Source: Sesamum alatum (lineage: Eukaryota > Streptophyta > Magnoliopsida > Lamiales > Pedaliaceae). Taken from it: 64,000 nt of DNA. Under the pieces are notes generated by a model, which saw only the letters and a program-made list of their open reading frames with translations, did no database searches and was not told the origin of the DNA. This document shows positions 3,172-55,100 of this stretch, in pieces. How positions within the stretch are numbered: position 1 is the stretch's first letter; every line of letters begins with the position of its first letter. The stretch lies in NCBI GenBank assembly GCA_034509735.1, contig JACGWO010000004.1, forward strand, positions 16,535,395-16,599,394, written 5' to 3'. The position numbers and the translations under genes are program-made.

Positions 3172-3434
3172 CGAAAACACGGTACTCTCAAACGTAGTTT
3201 TCGGGAAATCCTTTCCTAGTGGGCTTGGGATCCACAGCGATTTTTCCCATACCCGCTTTTACGATTCGCATGGAAAAGATCCTGTGGGAGGTATTCCATA
3301 CCATTCTCGTTCCACGAGATTCCCAAGATTATTGCCTCACCCTTTTTGCATGATCCCGAGGACTCCAAGCGAATCAATGCTAATTAGGCGTTAGACCGAC
3401 CCAATCGACCGAGCCATGGACCCACTAGTACCCC

Positions 3435-3650
3435 CACGACTCGTGAGACAGGTAGCAGCAGCCCATTTTTCGTTCATAGACATAGTGCAGCTTCTTTTAA
3501 GTACAATAACGTGCCACGACTCGTGAGACCACGCTATTGACCTAAAACAGCTTCCTCACTATGCCACGGATTGGAAGGCATGGACGAACTCCTAGAGTTC
3601 ATGTCCACTTTATCTAGGGTCTAATATTTCAACATTGGTCCAACCAATGT
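3435..3650 (-). ncRNA. Structured leader module of B1: hairpin plus two palindromes
   Basis: Reading the minus strand from 3650: a hairpin ACATTGGTTGGACCAATGT (3650-3632); then a hairpin (3539-3504) with arms CAATAGCGTG and CACGTTATTG around a loop containing CACGAGTCGTG (3525-3515); then a second CACGAGTCGTG (3445-3435), 80 nt further on. The same order and spacing occur in A2, B2 and A3, with stem sequences that differ but still pair. The role is unknown; dimerisation or packaging of genomic RNA is a reasonable guess. Confidence 0.55.
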
Positions 3651-4612
3651 GAGAGTAGTGAATGACCGAGATCTCATAATATATCCATACATTCATCCAT
3701 AATGCATAAATAAAATCCATCCATAGCAGTTATATGATAAATAAAAGCCATTCATCCATCATAATAACCACATGCAAAATTAAAGCCCTAGCACGCCCCT
3801 GTTGGATGATCACAAGCCCGAATCCTATGCGATCCACTGAGCCCGCAGTGGATCTATGGTCAATCTAGGGTTGGTCCTATACTATTACAATAATAGTAAC
3901 CCAATCATCATTCTGATGGGCCTTGGTCTCTTTTTTTCTCTTTCTTCACTTCATGGAAAACGCCAAGGGACCTCCGGTCTGGGCTCTCCCATGTGGTCCT
4001 TCCTTCTTCTCCACCAATTACAAAAATGGAAACCTCACTCCTGTCTACTTCATTACATATAAAAAAATTAGAAACCCCAGCGAAACCCCGGGGGGAGTAC
4101 ATAAGGAGGGAGGTAGAAAGCCTTATTATTCCAAGGCACTAGAAAGAGAGAAGGAGAAAGCAGTTAACAGAGGCACACAGGCCCAACAGTAAATTAAACC
4201 ATGAAGGGAATTCCGGTCTAGGGCTCGTGATCATCCATTTCCATCCAAACACACATAATTACATGATCCAATCACATAATCATAGATATTACCAACAACA
4301 CATGATTTCAATCACAATCAACCTTTTCCAAGATGAAGCAATAAAATGAACATGTGATATAAACGAACGTGTGAAAAATAAAACACAAATATTGGTAATA
4401 ATATTTTTCTCGTTTTAGGAAAACCTTTCCTCATTATTTTAAGTAAAATAACCCCGGGATTCCAAATCCTTTATTTTACTCCTAAAATAATGTCTTTAGG
4501 AATTTAGGAAAATTGATACCCAAAAACGAATTTTTCAGATTATTCAAATTAAAACTGAAAATAAATTTAACAAATAAAATAATAATGCTAGGGCTTCAAA
4601 AAAACATAGCTG

Positions 4613-5268
4613 CTAGCAGCCGGCCGCCGGCCGCCTGCCAACCGGCAGCAGCCGGCAGGCCGTGCGCGCAAGGGGCAGCAGGCCCAGCCTGCTGCCGCCT
4701 GCGCGCGCAGGCACTGCCTGGCCGGGCGCCGGCGCGCAGGCCCCGCTTGCCTGCATGCGCGCGCGCCTCGGCCAGCGAGCGCTGCGGCGACTGGTGTTCC
4801 GGCAGGCCGACGCGCGCGCAAGGCTCCTTTGCTGTGCGCGCGCGCTGGCCTGCTGGCCACCGGCCGCATCCCTGCGTCGCGCGCCAGAGCGCGCGCAGCA
4901 GACGCGCACTGGGCATGCCTGCCGGGCGCGCGCGCAGACGCCTCCGTCTGCGTGCGCGCGCGCCTGGCGGCGCGCCTGGTGCCCGTCCGCGCGCGGGCTC
5001 CTCCGCCCGCCAGCCTTGCGCGCGCCGCGCATGGGCGCGCCTACCGGCGCGCGCGCGCGCAGATTAACAACACCTCTGTCTGCCGCGCGCGCGGCGCCTG
5101 GAGGCGTTTCCATGCGCGCACGCCCGCGCGCAGCCAACTGCCGGCTGCGCGCTGCCCCTGGCGCGGCCGGCAGCGCGCACGGCGCGCAGGCTTCCCATGC
5201 CTGCGCGCGTCTGCCCTGCCGGCAGCGCTCGGCTGCGCGCGGCCAGCCTTCCCGGCTGGCCGGCTGTG
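4613..5268 (-). repeat. GC-rich CG-alternating island in B1 leader (about 650 bp)
   Basis: A sharply bounded block rich in GCGCGC, GGCCGG and CTGCCGG runs, set in otherwise AT-rich leader. It shows no coding pattern: long open frames exist on both strands only because stop codons are scarce in such sequence. Shorter versions sit at the same place in A2, B2 and A3. Confidence 0.7.
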
Positions 5269-5478
5269 ACGTTTTCTCGTTTTTCAGATTAATTCCCATC
5301 CCGATTCCCAAGAAAAAACAGAAAAATACCAATATTCAGCAATTCACATGAAATTAAAAGCAATAAAAATAACATGCTTCAAGAATCAAGAAATTCAAGA
5401 TTTAATTACAACATGCTATTTTCACGTTTCAGTGCTTAAAACGCACATAAAGCGCCCTAGGCCTATACGCACACCGAA

Positions 5479-5495
5479 CCGGGGCTCTGATACCA
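5479..5495 (-). other. Primer-binding site of B1 (initiator tRNA-Met)
   Basis: The minus strand reads TGGTATCAGAGCCCCGG, three bases after the end of the LTR. This matches the 3' end of plant initiator tRNA-Met, the usual copia primer. Confidence 0.9.
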
Positions 5496-16200: not shown

Positions 16201-16216
16201 TGGTATCAGAGCCCGG
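16201..16216 (+). other. Primer-binding site of A2 (initiator tRNA-Met)
   Basis: TGGTATCAGAGCCCGG lies two bases after the LTR and is complementary to the 3' end of initiator tRNA-Met. Confidence 0.9.
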
Positions 16217-17462: not shown

Positions 17463-17678
17463 ATTTGGTTGGACCAAATTAAATAGTAGGCCCAAAATGG
17501 ACTTGGATCAAAATGGTATTTTGATCTGTCCGAGCCTTCCATCCACAGCAATGTGGTGAGGAAGCTACCACTACCCAAGTGTAGCCTCACGAGTCGTGGC
17601 ACACTTGGACTAGGGGAAAGCTGCACCATTGTTGAACAAAAAGACTGCGCTCGCTGTTTCCCTGTCTCACGAGTCGTA
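17463..17678 (+). ncRNA. Structured leader module of A2
   Basis: The hairpin ATTTGGTTGGACCAAAT (17463-17479) is followed by a hairpin at 17575-17608 with arms CCAAGTGTA and CACACTTGG around the loop palindrome CACGAGTCGTG (17588-17598). A second palindrome, CACGAGTCGTA with its last base changed, lies at 17668-17678. Spacing between palindromes is 80 nt, as in B1 and B2. Confidence 0.55.
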
Positions 17679-17941
17679 GGGGGCGATAGTTTGAGGCATG
17701 ATTTGGTTGATGGGTCGGGCCCAACACTGAGTAACATGGTTCGCTTGGATTCCTCGGAACCATGTGAATAGGTGAGGCAAAATATCTTGGGAATCTCATT
17801 GGATGAGAATGATATTGGATATCTCCCACGAGGTCTTCTTCATGTGAATCGTAAAAACAGGGCATGGAGATTACGCTTGTGGATCCCGAGCCCACTAGGA
17901 AATGGTTTACCGAAACTCCGCTTAAGAGTGGCGGACTTTCG

Positions 17942-18045: not shown

Positions 18046-19529
18046 ATGTCTAAGAATCCATTAACCATGGTACTTGAGACTAATAAATTCAACGGAACGA
18101 ACTACTTGGATTGGCTGAGAAACCTGAGGATTGTCCTCGATTCGAGAACCAAGGCTACGTCTTGGACGAGCCGCCGCCGATCGACTTACCAAAGGGGTCC
18201 ACGCCAGAAGAACGTTTGACGTTCGGGAAATGGCATGAGGACAACCGGAAAGTACGCAGTATCATACTGGCTTCAATGTCTAACGACATCCAGAAGCAGT
18301 ATGAGGGCTGGAGAATATCTCCGCCATAATGCTCCGCATGAACGAGGTTTATGCGGGTTTGGATAGGCATATTAGATATGCCGCCAGAAAATCATTCTTT
18401 GGCACCAAGCTTGCTGAAGGAGTGTCTGTATAAAGTCATGGGGTCAAGATGCTCTCCCTAGTGGAGAAACTCGAGGACCTTAAAGATGGGCTTAACAATG
18501 ACACGTACATTGACATGATCCTCCAGTCGCTTCCTCCGTCCTATGACCTGTTTGTTGTAAACTACAACATGAATGGACTTGAGAAGTCTATTCATGAGTT
18601 GATCAACATGCTGGTCCAATACGACGCAACGACCCACAAGTCAGCGCCGGCGGTATTGATAAGAGAGGCTTCGACCTCCAAGGCGAATGGCAAGAGGGCC
18701 GGACGGTGGAAGAGGAAGAAAGGGAAAGAAAAGACGATTGCTGCCCCTGCTCGCGCTCCAGGCACCCCTATTGCTCCAGTGGGACCGAGCAAAGGGAAAG
18801 GGAAGGCCCGTGGTTCTCAGCGGTCCAAGGAAAATGATGTCTGCATGCATTGCCAAGGGAAGGGGCATTGGAAGAGGGAGTGCCCACAACTCCTCTCCAA
18901 CCCAGGTATGTTTGTGGTTGAAGTAAACATGATAACTAATTCTGCTTCATGGGTATTGGATACCGGGTGTGGTGCTCACATCTTCAATGATTTGGAGGCA
19001 CTGCAAAGAAGCAGAAGGCTAACCAAGGATGAGATGATCCTGAGGCTAGGCGATGGCAAGGTCGTTACTGCAGAAGTTGTAGGGTCAATGGAGTTAGCTA
19101 TTAGTAGTCATGTTAGGATTGTACTGAACGACTGTTTCTATGTACCTAGCATGATTAAAAATATTGTTTCGATCCTGGTCCTTGATAAGGAGGGATTTGA
19201 ATTTACCATCAATAAAAATGTTTTTTTCATTATTAAAGATGGTATTTCTTATCTGCTTGGTACATTGGTCAATGTTCTGTACATACTTCAACAGTCTAAT
19301 TGGATTATGACTGCAGAACACAAACGAAAACATGATGATCATAATAACGCACAGATATGGCATGCGAGGTTAGGTCATATCTCTAAAGATAGGATAAGAA
19401 GGTTGGCGGACTCAAAGAGTCTAGAAATAGACGATTTGGACAACCTACCGACCTGCGAATCCTGTCTGAAGGGAAAGATGACCAAGAAACCCTTTATTGG
19501 ACAAAGCACGCTAGCCAGTGGTCTGTTGG
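18046..19529 (+). pseudogene. copia gag-protease-integrase N-part of A2
   Basis: The gag starts at 18046 (MSKNP...). One base is missing near 18140 compared with A3, shifting the frame early in gag; further stops or shifts lie near 18329 and 18432. From 18449 one long frame covers the end of gag, the zinc knuckle CMHCQGKGHWKREC, protease (DTGCGAH near 18960) and the integrase zinc region (HARLGH ... CESCLKGK) before the sequence ends at the breakpoint. The missing catalytic core of integrase and all of RT make the copy non-functional. Confidence 0.88.
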
Positions 19530-47393: not shown

Positions 47394-47628
47394 ACATTGG
47401 TTGGACCAATGTCCAAATATTAGACCCTAGACAAAGTGGACATGGACTCTAGGAGTCTGTCCATGCCTTCCAATCCATGGCAATAATGAGGAAGCTGATT
47501 TAGGTCGATAGCGTGGTCTCACGAGTCGTGGCACGTCTATCGTGCTTAAAAGAAGCTGCACTGTGTCATGAACAAAAAGTAGACCACTGTTACCTGTCTC
47601 ACTAGTCATGGAGGTAGCAGCGGGTCTA
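47394..47628 (+). ncRNA. Structured leader module of B2
   Basis: The hairpin ACATTGGTTGGACCAATGT (47394-47412) is followed by a hairpin at 47506-47542 with arms CGATAGCGTG and CACGTCTATCG (one bulged T) around the palindrome CACGAGTCGTG (47520-47530). The second site is CACTAGTCATG (47600-47610). It sits between CTGTTACC (47587-47594) and GGTAGCAG (47613-47620), with outer arms TAGACC (47580-47585) and GGTCTA (47623-47628), so a second hairpin is well supported here. Confidence 0.58.
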
Positions 47629-47849
47629 TGATTCGGTTGATTGGGTGGGGTCTGACGTCCGATTAGCATGATTCGCTTGGAGTCCTCGGGATCATGTGAA
47701 AGGGTGAGGCAATTATCTTGGGAATCTCTTGGAATGAGAATGGTATGGTATACCTCCCACAGGATTCTTCCCATGCGAATCGTAAAAGCGGGATATGGGA
47801 AAATTAAATGTTTATCCCGAAAATGACTTTTGAAAGTATCGTGTTTTCG

Positions 47850-47963: not shown

Positions 47964-48104
47964 ATGTCTAAGAACCCATTATCAATCATACTTGAGACCA
48001 ACAGTTCAATGGAACAAATTACAACGACTGGTTGCGCAATCTGAGGATAGTCCTAGATTACGAGAACCAAGGCTACGTCATGGACGAACCTCTCCCTAGG
48101 ACCT
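47964..48104 (+). pseudogene. copia gag start of B2, cut by A3
   Basis: It begins MSKNPLSIILETN, then a base is lost relative to B1 in the AATTCAATGG region, and it ends after CCCTAGGACCT where the A3 LTR starts. The gag continuation should follow A3 to the right. Confidence 0.8.
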
Positions 48105-50332
48105 TGTTAGAATAGGTGACCAGAAAGCCAATAGGTTTGGCGATTTGTATCCTATCTGACAACTTGATGTAAATGTAATATTATTATGTGATGAATAAGA
48201 TGAGTATTCGTCACCAATGGTACCTTCTTTGTTGCGCTCATCTTACATTTGTTAAAATGGTGTTTAACTTATATCGCAACAAAGCTCACAGACCATGGAT
48301 AACAACTCGTGCAGTTGGGCCACGCATTGGATGGTGGTCATGAAACCAACTGATTAAGAGTTGGGTCTGAAACGTTCCAAGTCGAGGACCTCGAGACAGG
48401 GCATCGAGAGTCCTATTGAGACTTGCGTCAAGAGTCGTGTTCATTGGATGAGTGCCGTGTTTCATCGGCGACAGGCGTGCGACGCCTACACGATCTTGAT
48501 GGGTTGGTCGACTGGGGTCGAGCCGACTGGACTGACTCGCGGGATCATCATATGGAAGCCTTGGAGGCTTGGTCGGTATGATTGGTTTTCCTCGGTTCCG
48601 ATAGTACGGGAGTAATCCTCAAACTTGAGGGATCATGGCAGTCGCGTGCACAGGACGGCTGTATCTTGGATCTGGCGAGAGGTAATCATTCTGTAAGATG
48701 ATTATCATAAGCCTTGTCCAGTGCAGTCAGAATGTGTAGCGAGGACGGGGGATTCCAAGAAGAGGATCTGTCCCCCTGTCAGTATGTGACAGAGGTATCT
48801 CCTATGCACTCGGAGACACGTTCATGCTGTTTGAAGCTGTGGCCACAGTGGTTGGTCGAACAGGGAATGGTTTCCTGTGTCGACCCAATGAAGCATACGT
48901 GGTCTCGAGTATTAAGCATAGATGCCTAGTCAAGGATGGGAACCGACGCCCAATTCCATACCCTAGACTAAGGCCGGGAGACGGTAGACGGAAGGATCGT
49001 ACCCGTACGAAATCGGCGCCTAAATGTTCACGCCAATTCACCTAGTCTCTAGTGCCATGGACCGTTGCTAGACGGCCACCCATGGTAACGGGCCCTTGTG
49101 GGACACGGGCCCAAGTCTAGCTGAGGGTGAACCTAAAGGGTCTCACACAAATCACCGAGGAGGTTGAGAGATCGACTTGGAGTCAACCTCGAAGGATAAA
49201 ATAAGTAATTGGATTACTTAAGGGAAAGCCCATTGGATGGACAGGCCGATATCGTATCGGGCTTTCATTTAATCGGTAAATTGAATTTTCGATTAAATAT
49301 GAAAAGTTGAGATGTTGAGACGTTGGATCTTTTAATTGGATTAAAAGATCAACGGGAATAATTTAAGTGGACATTAAATTGGATTTAATATTGGGTTCGT
49401 CGTAATTGGGTTGCGATAAAACCCGGTCCGTTAAATTATACCCGAGAGGAGAAATAATTCCTAATTTGGAATGGGAAGAAGTTGGACTTCTTTCCTTAAT
49501 TAAACATGGCCGACACGCTCCCTTGGAGGAAGCAAAATCAGCCATGTTTCATGCTATGTGGTATGTTGACTTATGTCTTTTGGAAAGAGACAAATCAACT
49601 CCAATCAAGCTCTTCCCTTTTGGTATGATTTGATCATACCATAAATTTTGGTAGGCTTGATTGAAGAATTGATGGTAATTGATTGGAATGAATCTAGACA
49701 TCCTTGGATGAACCTAGACACATTCCAATAATCACATTAATTATGTATATATATTAGAATATACAACATCAAGCATAAGTGATCCATTATTCATCTTTTT
49801 CTAGGAAAAAGAGAAGACAAAAATCCTCTCCTCTCTCTCAATTTTCGTGCTCTCTCCCTCTCTTACACTTGTGTTCTTCACTTGATTTTGAATCAAGAAG
49901 AAGAACAAAGTAAGTTTAAGAGAACACTAATTCATAATGTTCTTCTCTTAAACTGATTCCTTCCTAAACCCGTTCTTTTCTAGCAAGAAGAACGTGTGTT
50001 TCTTCCGGTGTGGTGTGGATCACCTTTGGAGAATCCATACGTTTGGATTTCGTGAGCATTCCGGAGAAGGAACAATGCTAGTAGCCGGGAGCATACGCTA
50101 AACAATCAAAGGTAACGGTTTATTACGCTTTGATTGATTTCATTTATATATCTATGCCCTATGTGTTTAAATATATGTTTTAATATTTACACATCCTACA
50201 TCGGACGCCCGGCTGAGCACCCAAGGATACACCCCTTGGGATTCGCGTATTTTGAATTTGATTTAAATTTAAGCACAATTTCTCGCTTCCTCGCTTCCGC
50301 TCGCGCTCCCGGGCGGATCCGCTTGTCCTTCA
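48105..50332 (+). repeat. Family A LTR (5' LTR of A3)
   Basis: 2228 bp, with TG...CA ends intact (TGTTAGAATAGG ... GTCCTTCA). Confidence 0.92.
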
Positions 50333-50334
50333 AG

Positions 50335-50350
50335 TGGTATCAGAGCCCGG
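50335..50350 (+). other. Primer-binding site of A3 (initiator tRNA-Met)
   Basis: TGGTATCAGAGCCCGG two bases after the LTR. Confidence 0.9.
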
Positions 50351-50690: not shown

Positions 50691-51529
50691 CGTTTTTCGA
50701 CTTTTTTTCGGAAAATTCGATTTTCTGTATTTTTCTGCACGATATTCTGAAAATATGTTAATTTTGCATTTTTGATTTTGGGATAATTGGATTATTCCTT
50801 GAATTAAATTTGCTTAATTAATTTGGGATTAATACATGCATTGGATGCATTGTTTAAATTGTCCATTAAATTTAAAATTTGAATTTTGCATATTATTTGT
50901 ATATTTATGCTTTTGTGATGTTGGACATCACTTGGGTATTTGGAATATGAATTGGTTATTTATGCATGATTATTTGGAATAATTATGTTATGTGAGTTGA
51001 TGGAATCAACATGGGATGATCACAAGAGCCCTAGACCTTATGTATGGATGAATGTATGATCATTTATTTTCTGTTGGGTGGGGCCTGCGTGCCTCTTGTT
51101 TTTGGGACTATCATCTCCCGTATTTTCAGCCTTATGATGTTAAGGCTTGTTTTCTTTATTACCGATGTATTACTTTCAGTTGTAATGAGAGTAGATAGGA
51201 TTGGTGAGGTTTCAATTTTAACAAGCAATTGGAGTCGGAGACCCCAAGGAGGAGCATCAAGGCGTGAAACAAGAAGCATTTCAAGGCCCATTGGAATGAC
51301 AATGGGTTTATTATTATTGTAATAATTTAGGACCACCCTAGACAGACCGTAGACTCACTGCGGGCTCAGTGGGTTGCATAGGTTGGGCTTGTGATCATCC
51401 TAACAGGGGTATACTATGTTTTCTGCATGCGACGTACTTATTTATCGCTTTAAATATTGGATATTTATGCATGCTAAAACACAATAATGTGATGAGGTCT
51501 CGGTCATACACAAACTCTCATTTGGTTGG

Positions 51530-51748
51530 ACCAAATTAAATATTAGGCCCAGAACGGACTTGGATCAAAATGGTATTTTTGGTCTGTCCGAGCCTTCCAT
51601 CCACAGCAATGTGGTGAGGAAGCTACCACTACCCAAGTGTGGTCTCACGAGTCGTGGCACACTTGGACTAGGGGAAAGCTGCACTATTGTTGTGAACAAA
51701 AAGACTGCGCTCGCTGTTTCCCTGTCTCACGAGTCGTGGGGGTGACAG
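51530..51748 (+). ncRNA. Structured leader module of A3
   Basis: The hairpin ATTTGGTTGGACCAAAT (51530-51546) is followed by a hairpin at 51633-51666 with arms CCAAGTGTG and CACACTTGG around the palindrome CACGAGTCGTG (51646-51656). A second perfect palindrome lies at 51728-51738 between the weaker arms CTGTTTCCC and GGGTGACAG. Spacing is 82 nt because of a 2-base insertion. Confidence 0.58.
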
Positions 51749-52000
51749 TTTGAGGCATGATTTGGTTGATGGGTCGGGCCCAACACTGAGTAACATGGTT
51801 CACTTGGAGTCCTCGGGACCATGTGAATAGGTGAGGCAAAATATCTTGGGAATCTCATTGGATGAGAATGATATTGGATATCTCTCACAGGGTCTTTTTC
51901 ATGTGAATCGTAAAAGCGGGGCATGGAGATTACGCTTGTGGATCCCAAGCCCACTAGGAAATGGTTTCCCGAAACTCTGCTTGAGAGTGGCGGACTTTCG

Positions 52001-52008
52001 TATAAATA
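52001..52008 (+). promoter_or_regulatory. TATAAATA box in A3 leader, 98 bp before gag
   Basis: TATAAATAGTGGGAG, placed as in A2. Confidence 0.4.
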
Positions 52009-52105
52009 GTGGGAGGGTTAAAGACTAAAAGACCAAGTCTTCAACTTGAACAATAATATTACCATCATCTGCTAATTTCTGCTTTACATTTTCATTAATG
52101 TAGAT

Positions 52106-55100
52106 ATGTCTAAGAACCCGTTAACCATGATTCTTGAGACTAATAAATTCAACGGAACGAACTACTCGGACTAGCTGAGAAACCTGAGGATTATCCTTGA
52201 TTTCGAGAACCAAGGCTACGTCTTGGACAAGCCGCCACCGAGCGACTTTCCGGAGGGGTCCACGCCTGAAGAACGTTTGACGTTCGAGAAATGGCATGAG
52301 GACAATCGAAAAGTACGCAGTATCATACTGGCTTTGATGTCTAACGACATCCAGAAGCAGTATGAGAGGCTGGATAACGCCTCCGCCATAATGCTCTGCA
52401 TGAACGAGGTTTATGCGGTTCCGGATAGGCATATTAGATATGCCGCCACAAAAGCATTCTTTGGCACCAAGCTCGCTGAAGGAGCGTCTGTACAGAGTCA
52501 TGGGGTCAAGATGCTCTCCCTAGTGGAGAAACTCGAGGACCTTAAAAGCTGGGCTTAACAATGACACGTACATTGACGTGATCCTCCAGTCGCTTCCTCC
52601 ATCCTATGACCCGTTTGTTGTAAACTACAACATGAACGGACTTGAGAAGTCTATTCATGAGTTGATCAACATGCTGGTCCAATACGAGGCAACGACCCAC
52701 AAGTCGGCGCCGGCGGTATTGGTAGGAGAGGCTTCGACCTCCAAGGCGAATGGCAAGAGGGCCGGACGCTGGAAGAGGAAGAAGGGCAAAAGGAAGACGG
52801 TTGTGGACCTTGCTCACGCTCTGGGCGTCCCTGTTGCTCCGGTTGGACCGAGCAAAGGGAAAGGGAAGGCCCGTGGTTCTCAGCGGTCCAAGGCAAATGA
52901 TGTCTGCATGCATTGCCAAGGGAAAGGGCATTGGAAGAGGGAGTGCCCACAACTCCTCTCCAACCCAGGTGTGTTTGTGGTTGAAGTTTATATGATTACT
53001 AATTCTGCTTCATGGGTATTGGATACCGGGTGTGGTGCTCACATCTGCAATGATCTGCAGGCACTGCAAAGAAGCAGAAGGCTAACCAAGGATGAGATGA
53101 TCCTGAGGCTAGGCGATGGCAAGGCCGTTGCTGCGGAGGCCGTATGATCACTAGAGTTAGCCATTAGTAGTCATGTTAGGATTGTACTGAACGACGGTTT
53201 CTATGTACCTAGTATGATTAAAAACATTGTTTCCATCCCGGTCCTTGATAAGGAGGGATATGAATTTACCATCAATAAAAACGGTTTTTTCATTATCAAA
53301 GATGGTATTTCTCATCTGCTTGGTACATTGGTCAACGGTCTGTACATACTTCAACAGTCTAATTGGATTATGACTGCAGAACACAAACGAAAACGTGATG
53401 ATCATAATAACGCATAGATATGGCATGCGAGGTTAGGTCATATCTCTAAAGATAGGATAAGAAGGTTGGTGGACTCAAAGAGTCTAGAAATAGACGATTT
53501 GGACAACCTACCGACCTGCGAATCCTGTCTAAAGGGAAAGATGACCAAGAAACCCTTTGTTGGACAAAGTACGCTAGCCAGTGGTCTGTTGGATTTGATC
53601 CATACAGATGTCTGTGGTCCACTAAATACTCAGGCTAGAGGTGGGTACTCGTACTTCATAACCTTTACCGATGATCACTCACGGTATGGTTATGTTTACC
53701 TGATGAGGTACAAGTCTGAAGCCTTTGGAAGGTTTAAGGAATACAGACTTGAAGTGGAGAACCAAACCGGTCGAAAGATCAAAGTCCTTCGGTCGGACCG
53801 AGGTGGAGAGTATTTGAGTGGTGAGTTTACTGATTATCTAAAAGGGAATGGGATTCTTTCTCAGTGGACCCCTCCTGGAACACCGCAGCTTAATGGTGTG
53901 TCTGAAAGGAGGAATCGGACCTTGTTGGACATGATCCGATCCATGATGAGTTTTACTGAACTACCCCTTCTGGGATACGCTCTTGAGACGACGGCCAAAG
54001 TTTTGAACTTGGCGCCATCTAAAAGGGTATCCCAGGCGCCATATGAGATATGGCATGGCAAACCTGCCTCCTACAAATACTTGAAAGTGTGGGGTTGCCC
54101 CGCATATGTCAAGAGATTAGTGGGAGATAAACTGGACCCGAGGTCTAGTTTATGCAGGTTAATCGGCTATCCGAAAGAAACTGCGGGGTATTATTTCTAT
54201 GATCCCTCCAAGCAAAAGGTTTTTGTCTCGCGAAACGCAGTGTTCTTGGAAAAAGGTTTTCCATCGGATAGTCGACGCGATGAGGTACTCCTTGAGGAAT
54301 CAAGTGAGGTACCCCATGAGGCGGCAGTGACATCTGAGCCAGTGGTTCCCACTGATATTGTTCCAGTCCTCCGTAGGTCGGCCAGAGTATCCTATGCACC
54401 TGATAGGTATGGATTTCTGGGCCTGACCGGTCAGTTGGATAATGATCCAAAGACATACGAAGAAGCGATGTCGGACATCGATTCGGGCAAGTGGCTTGAG
54501 GCCATGAAATCCGAGATGGACTCGATGGGTACAAACAAGGTTTGGACCCTAGTAGATCCACCCAAAGGGGTTAAACCCGTAGGGTGTAAATGGGTCTACA
54601 AACGTAAGCTTGGAGCTGACGGGGAGGTTACAACCTTCAAAGCCAGGCTTGTGGCGAAAGGTTATACTCAACGACCCGGGGTCGATTTTGAGGAAACCTA
54701 CTCGCCCATAGCAATGGCCAAGTGCATTCGGATACTGCTTGCCATAGCAGCATGGTATGACTATGAAATATGGCAGATGGACGTGAAAACGGCTTTCCTC
54801 AACGGTTTAGTAGAGGAAGAGATCTATACGGATCAGCCGGAGGGTTTCACAACTATTGGAGAAGAGCAGAAGGCCTGCCGTCTCCAAAGGTCCATCTATG
54901 GCCTCAAACAAGCTTCCCGAAGCTGGAACATACGTTTTGATGAAGTCATACGGGGATATGATTTCACCAAGAACGAGTTTGATCCTTGTGTATACAAGAA
55001 GATCAGTGGGAGCTCAGTTGTGTTTGTGGTGCTTTACGTGGATGACATCTTGCTCATTGGGAATGACGCTAAGATGTTGGGTACCACTAAAGCTTGGTTG

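Follow-up and report, generated by a model that had tools for sequence, protein, structure and literature searches.

The 3′ part of the leader in two families of Ty1/copia elements, A and B, which lie nested in the 64-kb stretch of DNA analysed here (the window), appears to act in cis as an RNA domain of the genomic transcript, in which about ten hairpins combine mostly fixed apices with stems that change in a compensating manner. With moderate confidence, we propose that this leader domain is the encapsidation signal of these copia elements, recognised by Gag, and that its apices aid genome pairing. The original prediction, a tandem dimerisation or packaging signal, holds in so far as the leader has a covarying, RNA-type structure and, chiefly on the strength of a subfamily termed E3, seems to have a cis role on the genomic RNA. 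The domain would be transcribed in full.

Copia-type gag, integrase and reverse transcriptase domains (Pfam) are found downstream of the window leaders. In A3, A2 and B1, the leader runs from an exact primer binding site, TGGTATCAGAGC, at 50335-50346 (plus strand, preceded by the LTR at 48104-50332), 16201-16212 (plus) and 5484-5495 (minus), respectively, to the gag AUG within ATGTCTAAGAA, and the domain lies between LTR and primer site on one side and copia-type gag on the other, as is expected of a Ty1/copia leader. The primer site was not seen within about 1.4-1.5 kb upstream at any of the eight other loci; several of these stretches do not extend far enough to include it. The gag start codon is at 52106..52108 (plus) in A3, and the AUG is at 18046 in A2, 3057 in B1 and 47964 in B2, a copy whose 5′ end was not found. 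The hairpins are located downstream of the primer site by about 1.3-1.4 kb in A3 and A2 and by 2 kb in B1. Similarity between A and B leaders starts at about position 51282 of A3 and amounts to about 71% from there up to gag, while the 5′ parts of the A and B leaders have no match to each other. The resulting domain of about 770 nt holds the hairpins H1 and H2, and about 55 nt separate its end from the gag AUG. Two further features of the leaders were observed. A very GC-rich stretch with several frames open on both strands occupies 4610-5335 in the 5′ part of the B1 leader, and a mini-ORF consisting of ATG and an immediate stop codon is present just 5′ of the gag AUG (52097-52108 in A3, and homologous sites). 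The mini-ORF lies at most 24 nt upstream of the gag AUG in 64 of 81 fetched leaders with an exact gag start; over the same distance, eight have an ATG without an immediate stop and nine have no ATG.

The original prediction had placed a hairpin in each of the four window leaders, with arms that differ between copies yet still pair, and both points were confirmed for B1 (3504-3539, minus strand), A2 (17575-17608), B2 (47506-47542) and A3 (51633-51666), as was, in each leader, a repeat of the motif 80-82 nt farther downstream. H1 is indeed a hairpin, but it is longer than described: with an AGCT/AGCT stem and an outer stem below it, the structure reaches 93-98 nt (A3, 51604..51696, plus; A2, 17546..17638, plus; B1, 3473..3569, minus; B2, 47476..47573, plus). 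H2, which had been given a hairpin of its own in B2 alone, is predicted to fold in all four leaders (A3, 51703..51763, plus; A2, 17643..17704, plus; B1, 3412..3467, minus; B2, 47578..47633, plus), with weak support for its inner stem. H1 and H2 are real, but rather than a two-hairpin unit they are part of a chain of about ten. The loop region taken to be constant corresponds to the 16-mer GTCTCACGAGTCGTGG (51642-51657, plus, in H1 of A3, with the same apex in H2 of A3), which is exact in five of the eight window hairpins but changed in both hairpins of A2 and in H2 of B2.

The palindrome within this apex does not form the open loop that had been suggested. In the predicted fold, UCACG pairs with CGUGG, AGU forms a triloop and GUC a 5′ bulge, and the extended stem with a GAGTC loop, mentioned originally as an alternative, is in fact the preferred prediction. 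The palindrome is self-complementary at 10 of 11 positions and would be mostly paired within the apical stem, with only AGU open; its arms are paired in five of the eight predicted hairpins, the other three being the copies with a changed apex. The self-complementary sequence in an exposed loop that characterises a DIS was therefore not found at the H1/H2 palindrome. The window contains 30 matches to CACGAGTCGTG with up to two mismatches against 6.8 expected, the motif matching both strands and some matches lying inside LTRs. A further pairing is available to TGAGG (51615-51619, before the AGCT stem) with TCTCA (51644-51648) of the H1 apex. Of 98 H1 sequences, 96-98 could form it, and it equals the consensus fold of a badly registered alignment; it could represent an alternative fold, i.e. 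a switch, or merely two invariant words.

When the four window leaders were aligned by sequence only, 97.6% of the 127 cells of the 32-pair H1 structure were standard pairs and nine of the 32 pairs had changed on both sides, compared with 25-47% of cells and one to three such pairs in slid controls. The covariation score was 0.411 versus 0.078-0.130 for the slid versions, and none of 500 shuffles reached it. Four of five measures lay above nearly all of the 500 shuffles; the fifth, further pair types, was as high in 413 of them. In a simple simulation of the nine variable H1 pairs between A3 and B1, all pairs were kept in 504 of 1,000,000 trials. Single-sequence fold z-scores of the window hairpins, ranging from -0.2 to -6.0, were of no help. 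Raw energies were lower on the sense strand for all eight hairpins, and composition-corrected z-scores for six of the eight.

In the 527.7-Mb host genome, reversed patterns served as controls for the copy counts. The 16-mer has 13,773 exact copies (reversed pattern, 0), and the 100 places listed are mostly pairs 79-84 nt apart. Searching for H1 by its flanks alone, with the loop left free, returned 4,512 copies (control, 0), and the exact 16-mer is present in 80 of the 100 such copies listed, as counted by eye. We fetched 116 leader stretches, of which the first 56 were picked by the exact motif, and so give no measure of loop constancy, and the later 60 were deliberately chosen to be diverse. 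As read by eye and from the folds of 33 copies, they fall into subfamilies with different H1 stems; for example, the arms are CCAAGTGTG/CACACTTGG in A, CAATAGCGTG/CACGTTATTG in B, CTAAAGCGTG/CACGTTTTGG in C, CGATAGCGTG/CACGACTATCG with one bulged A in E3, and CCATTCGTG/CACGTTTGG with internal mismatches in D; the stem of subfamily G has internal mismatches as well. In viral contigs, two loci match the 16-mer, two other patterns had no match and a pol piece had no relative. A scan of prokaryote genomes, run without a control, gave four matches, which are taken as chance. Protein relatives (best 120 of 7,663) are led by Sesamum, with a best identity of 83%, which makes a plant of that order the probable host. 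The matches listed include copia pol proteins under the names Escherichia coli, Clostridioides difficile and Kitasatospora cathayae, which are probably plant DNA in bacterial assemblies.

The diverged copies allowed covariation to be assessed beyond the window. Among 120 leaders (116 fetched and four from the window), 85 start gag exactly, and out of this subset a test set of 16 copies was drawn that share less than 88% pairwise identity and are not too gapped, two of them being window copies. The scan covered every pair of 13-nt windows separated by no more than about 90 nt and compared the duplex energy within the same copy with that of arms dealt among copies. The H1 stem ranked first of 6,282 arm pairs on both measures, z and energy difference (-10.3 for native and -6.9 for swapped arms). 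Altogether, 25 pairs in six places (H1 stem, H1 outer stem, H2, Hf, Hd and Hj) had z<-3 and one pair had z>3, whereas minus-strand pairing rules gave 11 and none; because the windows overlap, these counts are not independent.

The chain of about ten hairpins spans 51282..52051 (plus) in A3, starting where A and B leaders become alignable. Folding of both families had pointed to additional hairpins whose loops are fixed and whose stems have changed, and Ha, Hb, Hd, He, Hf, Hg and Hi were named in this way beside H1 and H2, before genome copies were seen. In a full-arm test with 20,000 permutations on the 16 copies, seven of these nine reached p<=0.002, and two had no covariation. The supported seven (A3 positions, all plus strand) are the H1 stem (p=0.00005; outer stem, p=0.00015); H2 as a whole (p=0.00045); Ha at 51282..51311, with the loop GAATGA in A3, B1 and B2 (p=0.0012); Hd at 51513..51543, whose stem covaries across subfamilies (p=0.0001); He at 51556..51594, whose stem sequence is replaced between subfamilies (p=0.00005); Hf at 51790..51830, with the apex GGAGTCC (p=0.0001); and Hi at 51884..51946, with the loop GAATCGTAAAAGCGG in A3 and B1 (p=0.002). 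Hj (51968..52002, p=0.00005) and Hk (52013..52051, p=0.008) were derived from the scan of the same copies. Hb (p=0.62), Hg (p=0.64) and the inner H2 stem (p=0.10) were unsupported in this arm-permutation test. Among the seven copies below 80% identity, p was 0.0004 for H1, 0.0019 for Ha, 0.0024 for Hd, 0.009 for He, 0.0125 for H2, 0.017 for both Hf and Hj, 0.07 for both Hi and Hk, and 0.13 for the H1 outer stem. Native pairing was stronger under sense-strand than under minus-strand rules in 10 of 13 rows, equal in one and weaker in two, and the arms covary under minus-strand rules too. Covariation is hence well supported for H1, and the support is good for several other hairpins.

Other approaches were less informative. 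Custom-written R-scape-like all-pairs tests, which model the tree, found no pair at E<0.05 either among 21 leaders or among 98 H1 sequences, where the best pair had E=0.075, and a two-set version had no usable outcome because the consensus fold of its alignment missed the hairpin. Significant covariation in a larger alignment, on which the original prediction hinged, was thus obtained with the arm-permutation tests but not with the all-pairs tests, and it is with these non-significant tree-aware results that the leader has the conserved RNA structure expected of a packaging signal. In the first arm-swap between A and B, the leader exceeded the controls in one direction (7 of 13 versus 5 of 36, p=0.008) but not in the opposite one (3 of 12 versus 7 of 36). 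Among the 97 ranked in the A/B arm-swap, H1 came first and third and one LTR hairpin second and fourth; this A-family hairpin (48681-48706) has arms that differ from those of B yet pair. With sliding consensus folding, the leader could not be told apart from gag and pol controls, and a column-pair scan on the gapped alignment was of no help. At the curated threshold, Rfam had no family for the leader domain, a tRNA being the sole match in the window to reach it; with E up to 5, the domain had a single, weak match, to mir-466 on the opposite strand (E=1.5).

The strongest functional clue seems to be subfamily E3, in which the domain appears to be wanted by the RNA itself. A 25-mer tag of E3 has 582 exact genome copies (control, 0). 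Downstream of the leader, 15 of 16 copies examined have a decayed gag remnant and no pol match within the 3 kb (four copies) or 5 kb (11 copies) covered, and the remaining copy has another element there; two of the 15 are near-duplicates (99.87%). Retention of the leader next to a gag and pol that no longer work, as expected of a packaging signal, is therefore seen in these 15 copies. E3 copies are 92-98% identical to one of their number over most of 3 kb, and dispersed. E3 is apparently a dispersed, non-autonomous copia subfamily, and we infer from this identity that it multiplied in its decayed state using the proteins of its relatives. In the one copy checked, an exact primer site follows an LTR end that is 65% identical to that of B. 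Three E3 copies compared with A3/B1 have a leader identity of 0.71-0.80 and a gag identity of 0.61-0.64 with 11-14 frame-breaking gaps, versus 0.70-0.98 for the leader and 0.73-0.97 for gag, with 2-10 such gaps, in five gag-bearing copies. In E3, preservation of the leader is thus roughly on a par with that in gag-bearing copies, which does not apply to gag. H1 folds in all four E3 copies tried, with the full outer stem in three. For comparison, among 16 copies of other subfamilies covered over 3 kb, 14 have some integrase or reverse transcriptase match, mostly in broken frames; of the other two, one has only gag and one has no match. Leader retention in E3 may partly come from recent descent. 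Nevertheless, since the leader is kept despite a decayed gag and no pol match, these sequences favour a cis signal on the genomic RNA rather than a DNA site or a structure that helps gag to be translated.

A cis signal on the genomic RNA could serve purposes other than packaging, namely nuclear export, stability or the organisation of reverse transcription. All evidence favouring a cis role is compatible with such a function, as is the distance of 1.3-2 kb between the domain and the primer site in the window copies. However, no specific feature indicates export, stability or reverse transcription, and the repeated self-complementary apices better match dimerisation; we consider this explanation rather unlikely. 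We regard as unlikely that the domain is an IRES or another translation device, i.e. a structured 5′ UTR at the gag AUG that lets ribosomes skip the long leader. The hairpin chain stops about 55 nt short of the gag AUG, and the leaders carry many upstream AUGs (56 in A3, 60 in A2 and 57 in B1, excluding that of gag), which would fit such a device, yet E3 retains the domain with a decayed gag.

The palindromes might instead act at the DNA level as factor-binding sites on a promoter, with TATAAATAG downstream as an internal gag promoter. Sirevirus repeats have been proposed as DNA sites for a promoter-acting factor (PMC2829016). The palindromes here are invariant and nearly constant in spacing, TTCGTATAAATAGTGGGAG occurs 4,754 times in the genome, and arm covariation extends to minus-strand rules. 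All four window leaders also have TATAAATAG and, 34 nt downstream from TATA to CA, the invariant AAAGACCAAG (52028-52037 in A3); the TATA block, TTTCGTATAAATAGTGGGAG (51996-52015 in A3), is with 20 nt their longest invariant run. An internal TATA promoter for gag as a general feature was nevertheless dropped, because the TATA form varies across subfamilies: TATAAATAG is present in 54 of 92 fetched leaders with AAATAGTG, and others have TAGAAATAG, AAGAAATAG or CAGAAATAG, so that the conservation among family members expected of an internal plant promoter is lacking. In these other subfamilies, TATA becomes TAGA, AAGA or CAGA while AAATAGTGGGAG is largely kept, and TTCGTAGAAATAGTGGGAG occurs 1,154 times in the genome. 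The invariant part is, moreover, asymmetric, with GTCT on one side only, and many hairpins with covarying arms are unexpected for binding sites. The DNA-level site, offered originally as an alternative, is thus disfavoured by the covarying arms and, weakly, by strand asymmetry, and seems very unlikely. Least probable of all is chance combined with shared descent, whereby choosing hairpins in related copies creates apparent covariation. All copies are indeed related and from one genome, the tree-modelling tests were not significant, and when 400 arm pairs were drawn at random from the domain, without removing the real hairpins, 12 fell at p<0.005 and eight at p>0.995. On the other hand, H1 came first among 6,282 pairs and held in the seven copies below 80% identity, seven of nine pre-named hairpins held, and the E3 leader outlasted its gag.

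For the encapsidation signal that we prefer, a mechanism can be outlined. Gag might recognise the fixed exposed letters, i.e. the GUC bulge and AGU triloop present in both H1 and H2, together with fixed loops of the other hairpins. This encapsidation step is proposed because of E3 and the parallel with barley BARE2, which is reported to be unable to make Gag and yet to have its RNA packaged (PMC3735527). The apices of H1 and H2, which are identical and self-complementary, and perhaps that of Hf, could help two genomic RNAs to pair in the particle, a step suggested by the palindrome and by cofold energies. Homodimers of H1, H2 and Hf were calculated to gain 12.2 kcal/mol over two monomers, those of Hd and Hg 11.0 and those of five other hairpins 1.6-5.4 kcal/mol, whereas H1 with H2 would gain 0.9 kcal/mol over two monomers in a cofold model that excludes kissing loops. 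The predicted dimer preference of the palindrome hairpin is not unique, being common to three other hairpins of the domain. Tentatively, the domain might be a modular encapsidation array of about ten fixed apices on interchangeable stems, in which the GAGUC palindromes of H1, H2 and Hf link genomes at two or three points and E3 is packaged by its relatives.

The untranslated leader of Drosophila copia has an enhancer role. That leader region resembles the present domain in being a regulatory copia leader but acts on chromatin or DNA, unlike the RNA domain proposed here, and the two are likened by role alone (PMC2443393). The retroviral psi (SL1-SL4)/DIS leaders likewise have stem-loops 3′ of the primer site and 5′ of gag, with self-complementary apices (PMC3902901, PMC5454406); here, in contrast, a much longer chain lies 1.3-2 kb from the primer site, has fixed apices on freely varying stems and is known from sequence alone. 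The kissing-loop model of Ty1, itself a Ty1/copia element, has two intermolecular contacts made by hairpin apices, but it involves a pseudoknot and, close to the 5′ end of the RNA, two unlike hairpins that complement each other (PMC5454406), whereas our apices are identical, palindromic and far downstream. BARE1/BARE2 is likewise a plant copia system with a gag-defective subfamily, and conserved dimerisation and packaging signals are mentioned; RNA pools are separated there by two TATA boxes, the excerpts considered describe no structure of these signals (PMC3735527), and E3 differs in that the stretches covered contain no pol whatsoever. Sirevirus repeats, too, are palindromes that recur in non-coding regions of plant copia elements close to a TATA box. 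They are located in the LTRs and close to env, however, and are interpreted as DNA sites (PMC2829016), whereas ours are leader hairpins with covarying stems. E3 apparently resembles LARD elements, non-autonomous LTR elements kept mobile by relatives, but differs from them in its gag remnant and in a family that includes gag-bearing members (PMC10741241).

To our knowledge, little is known about how plant retrotransposons choose RNA for packaging. Leaders for packaging and dimerisation are of a known kind; a covarying multi-hairpin leader domain in plant copia elements, and a subfamily that isolates this domain from coding, are new as far as the open-access literature shows. Among the titles and abstract openings listed from that literature, which leaves out most subscription journals, none describes a leader structure of this kind, and according to the BARE study fairly little has been established outside BARE (PMC3735527). 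If correct, the modular array would amount to a packaging domain for plant copia elements that was recognised from sequence alone. In this one genome, natural variation offers leaders in their thousands, subfamilies that are clearly distinct, and an apparently parasitic family in which cis signals and coding needs come apart; packaging and dimerisation can therefore be tested directly on short RNAs.
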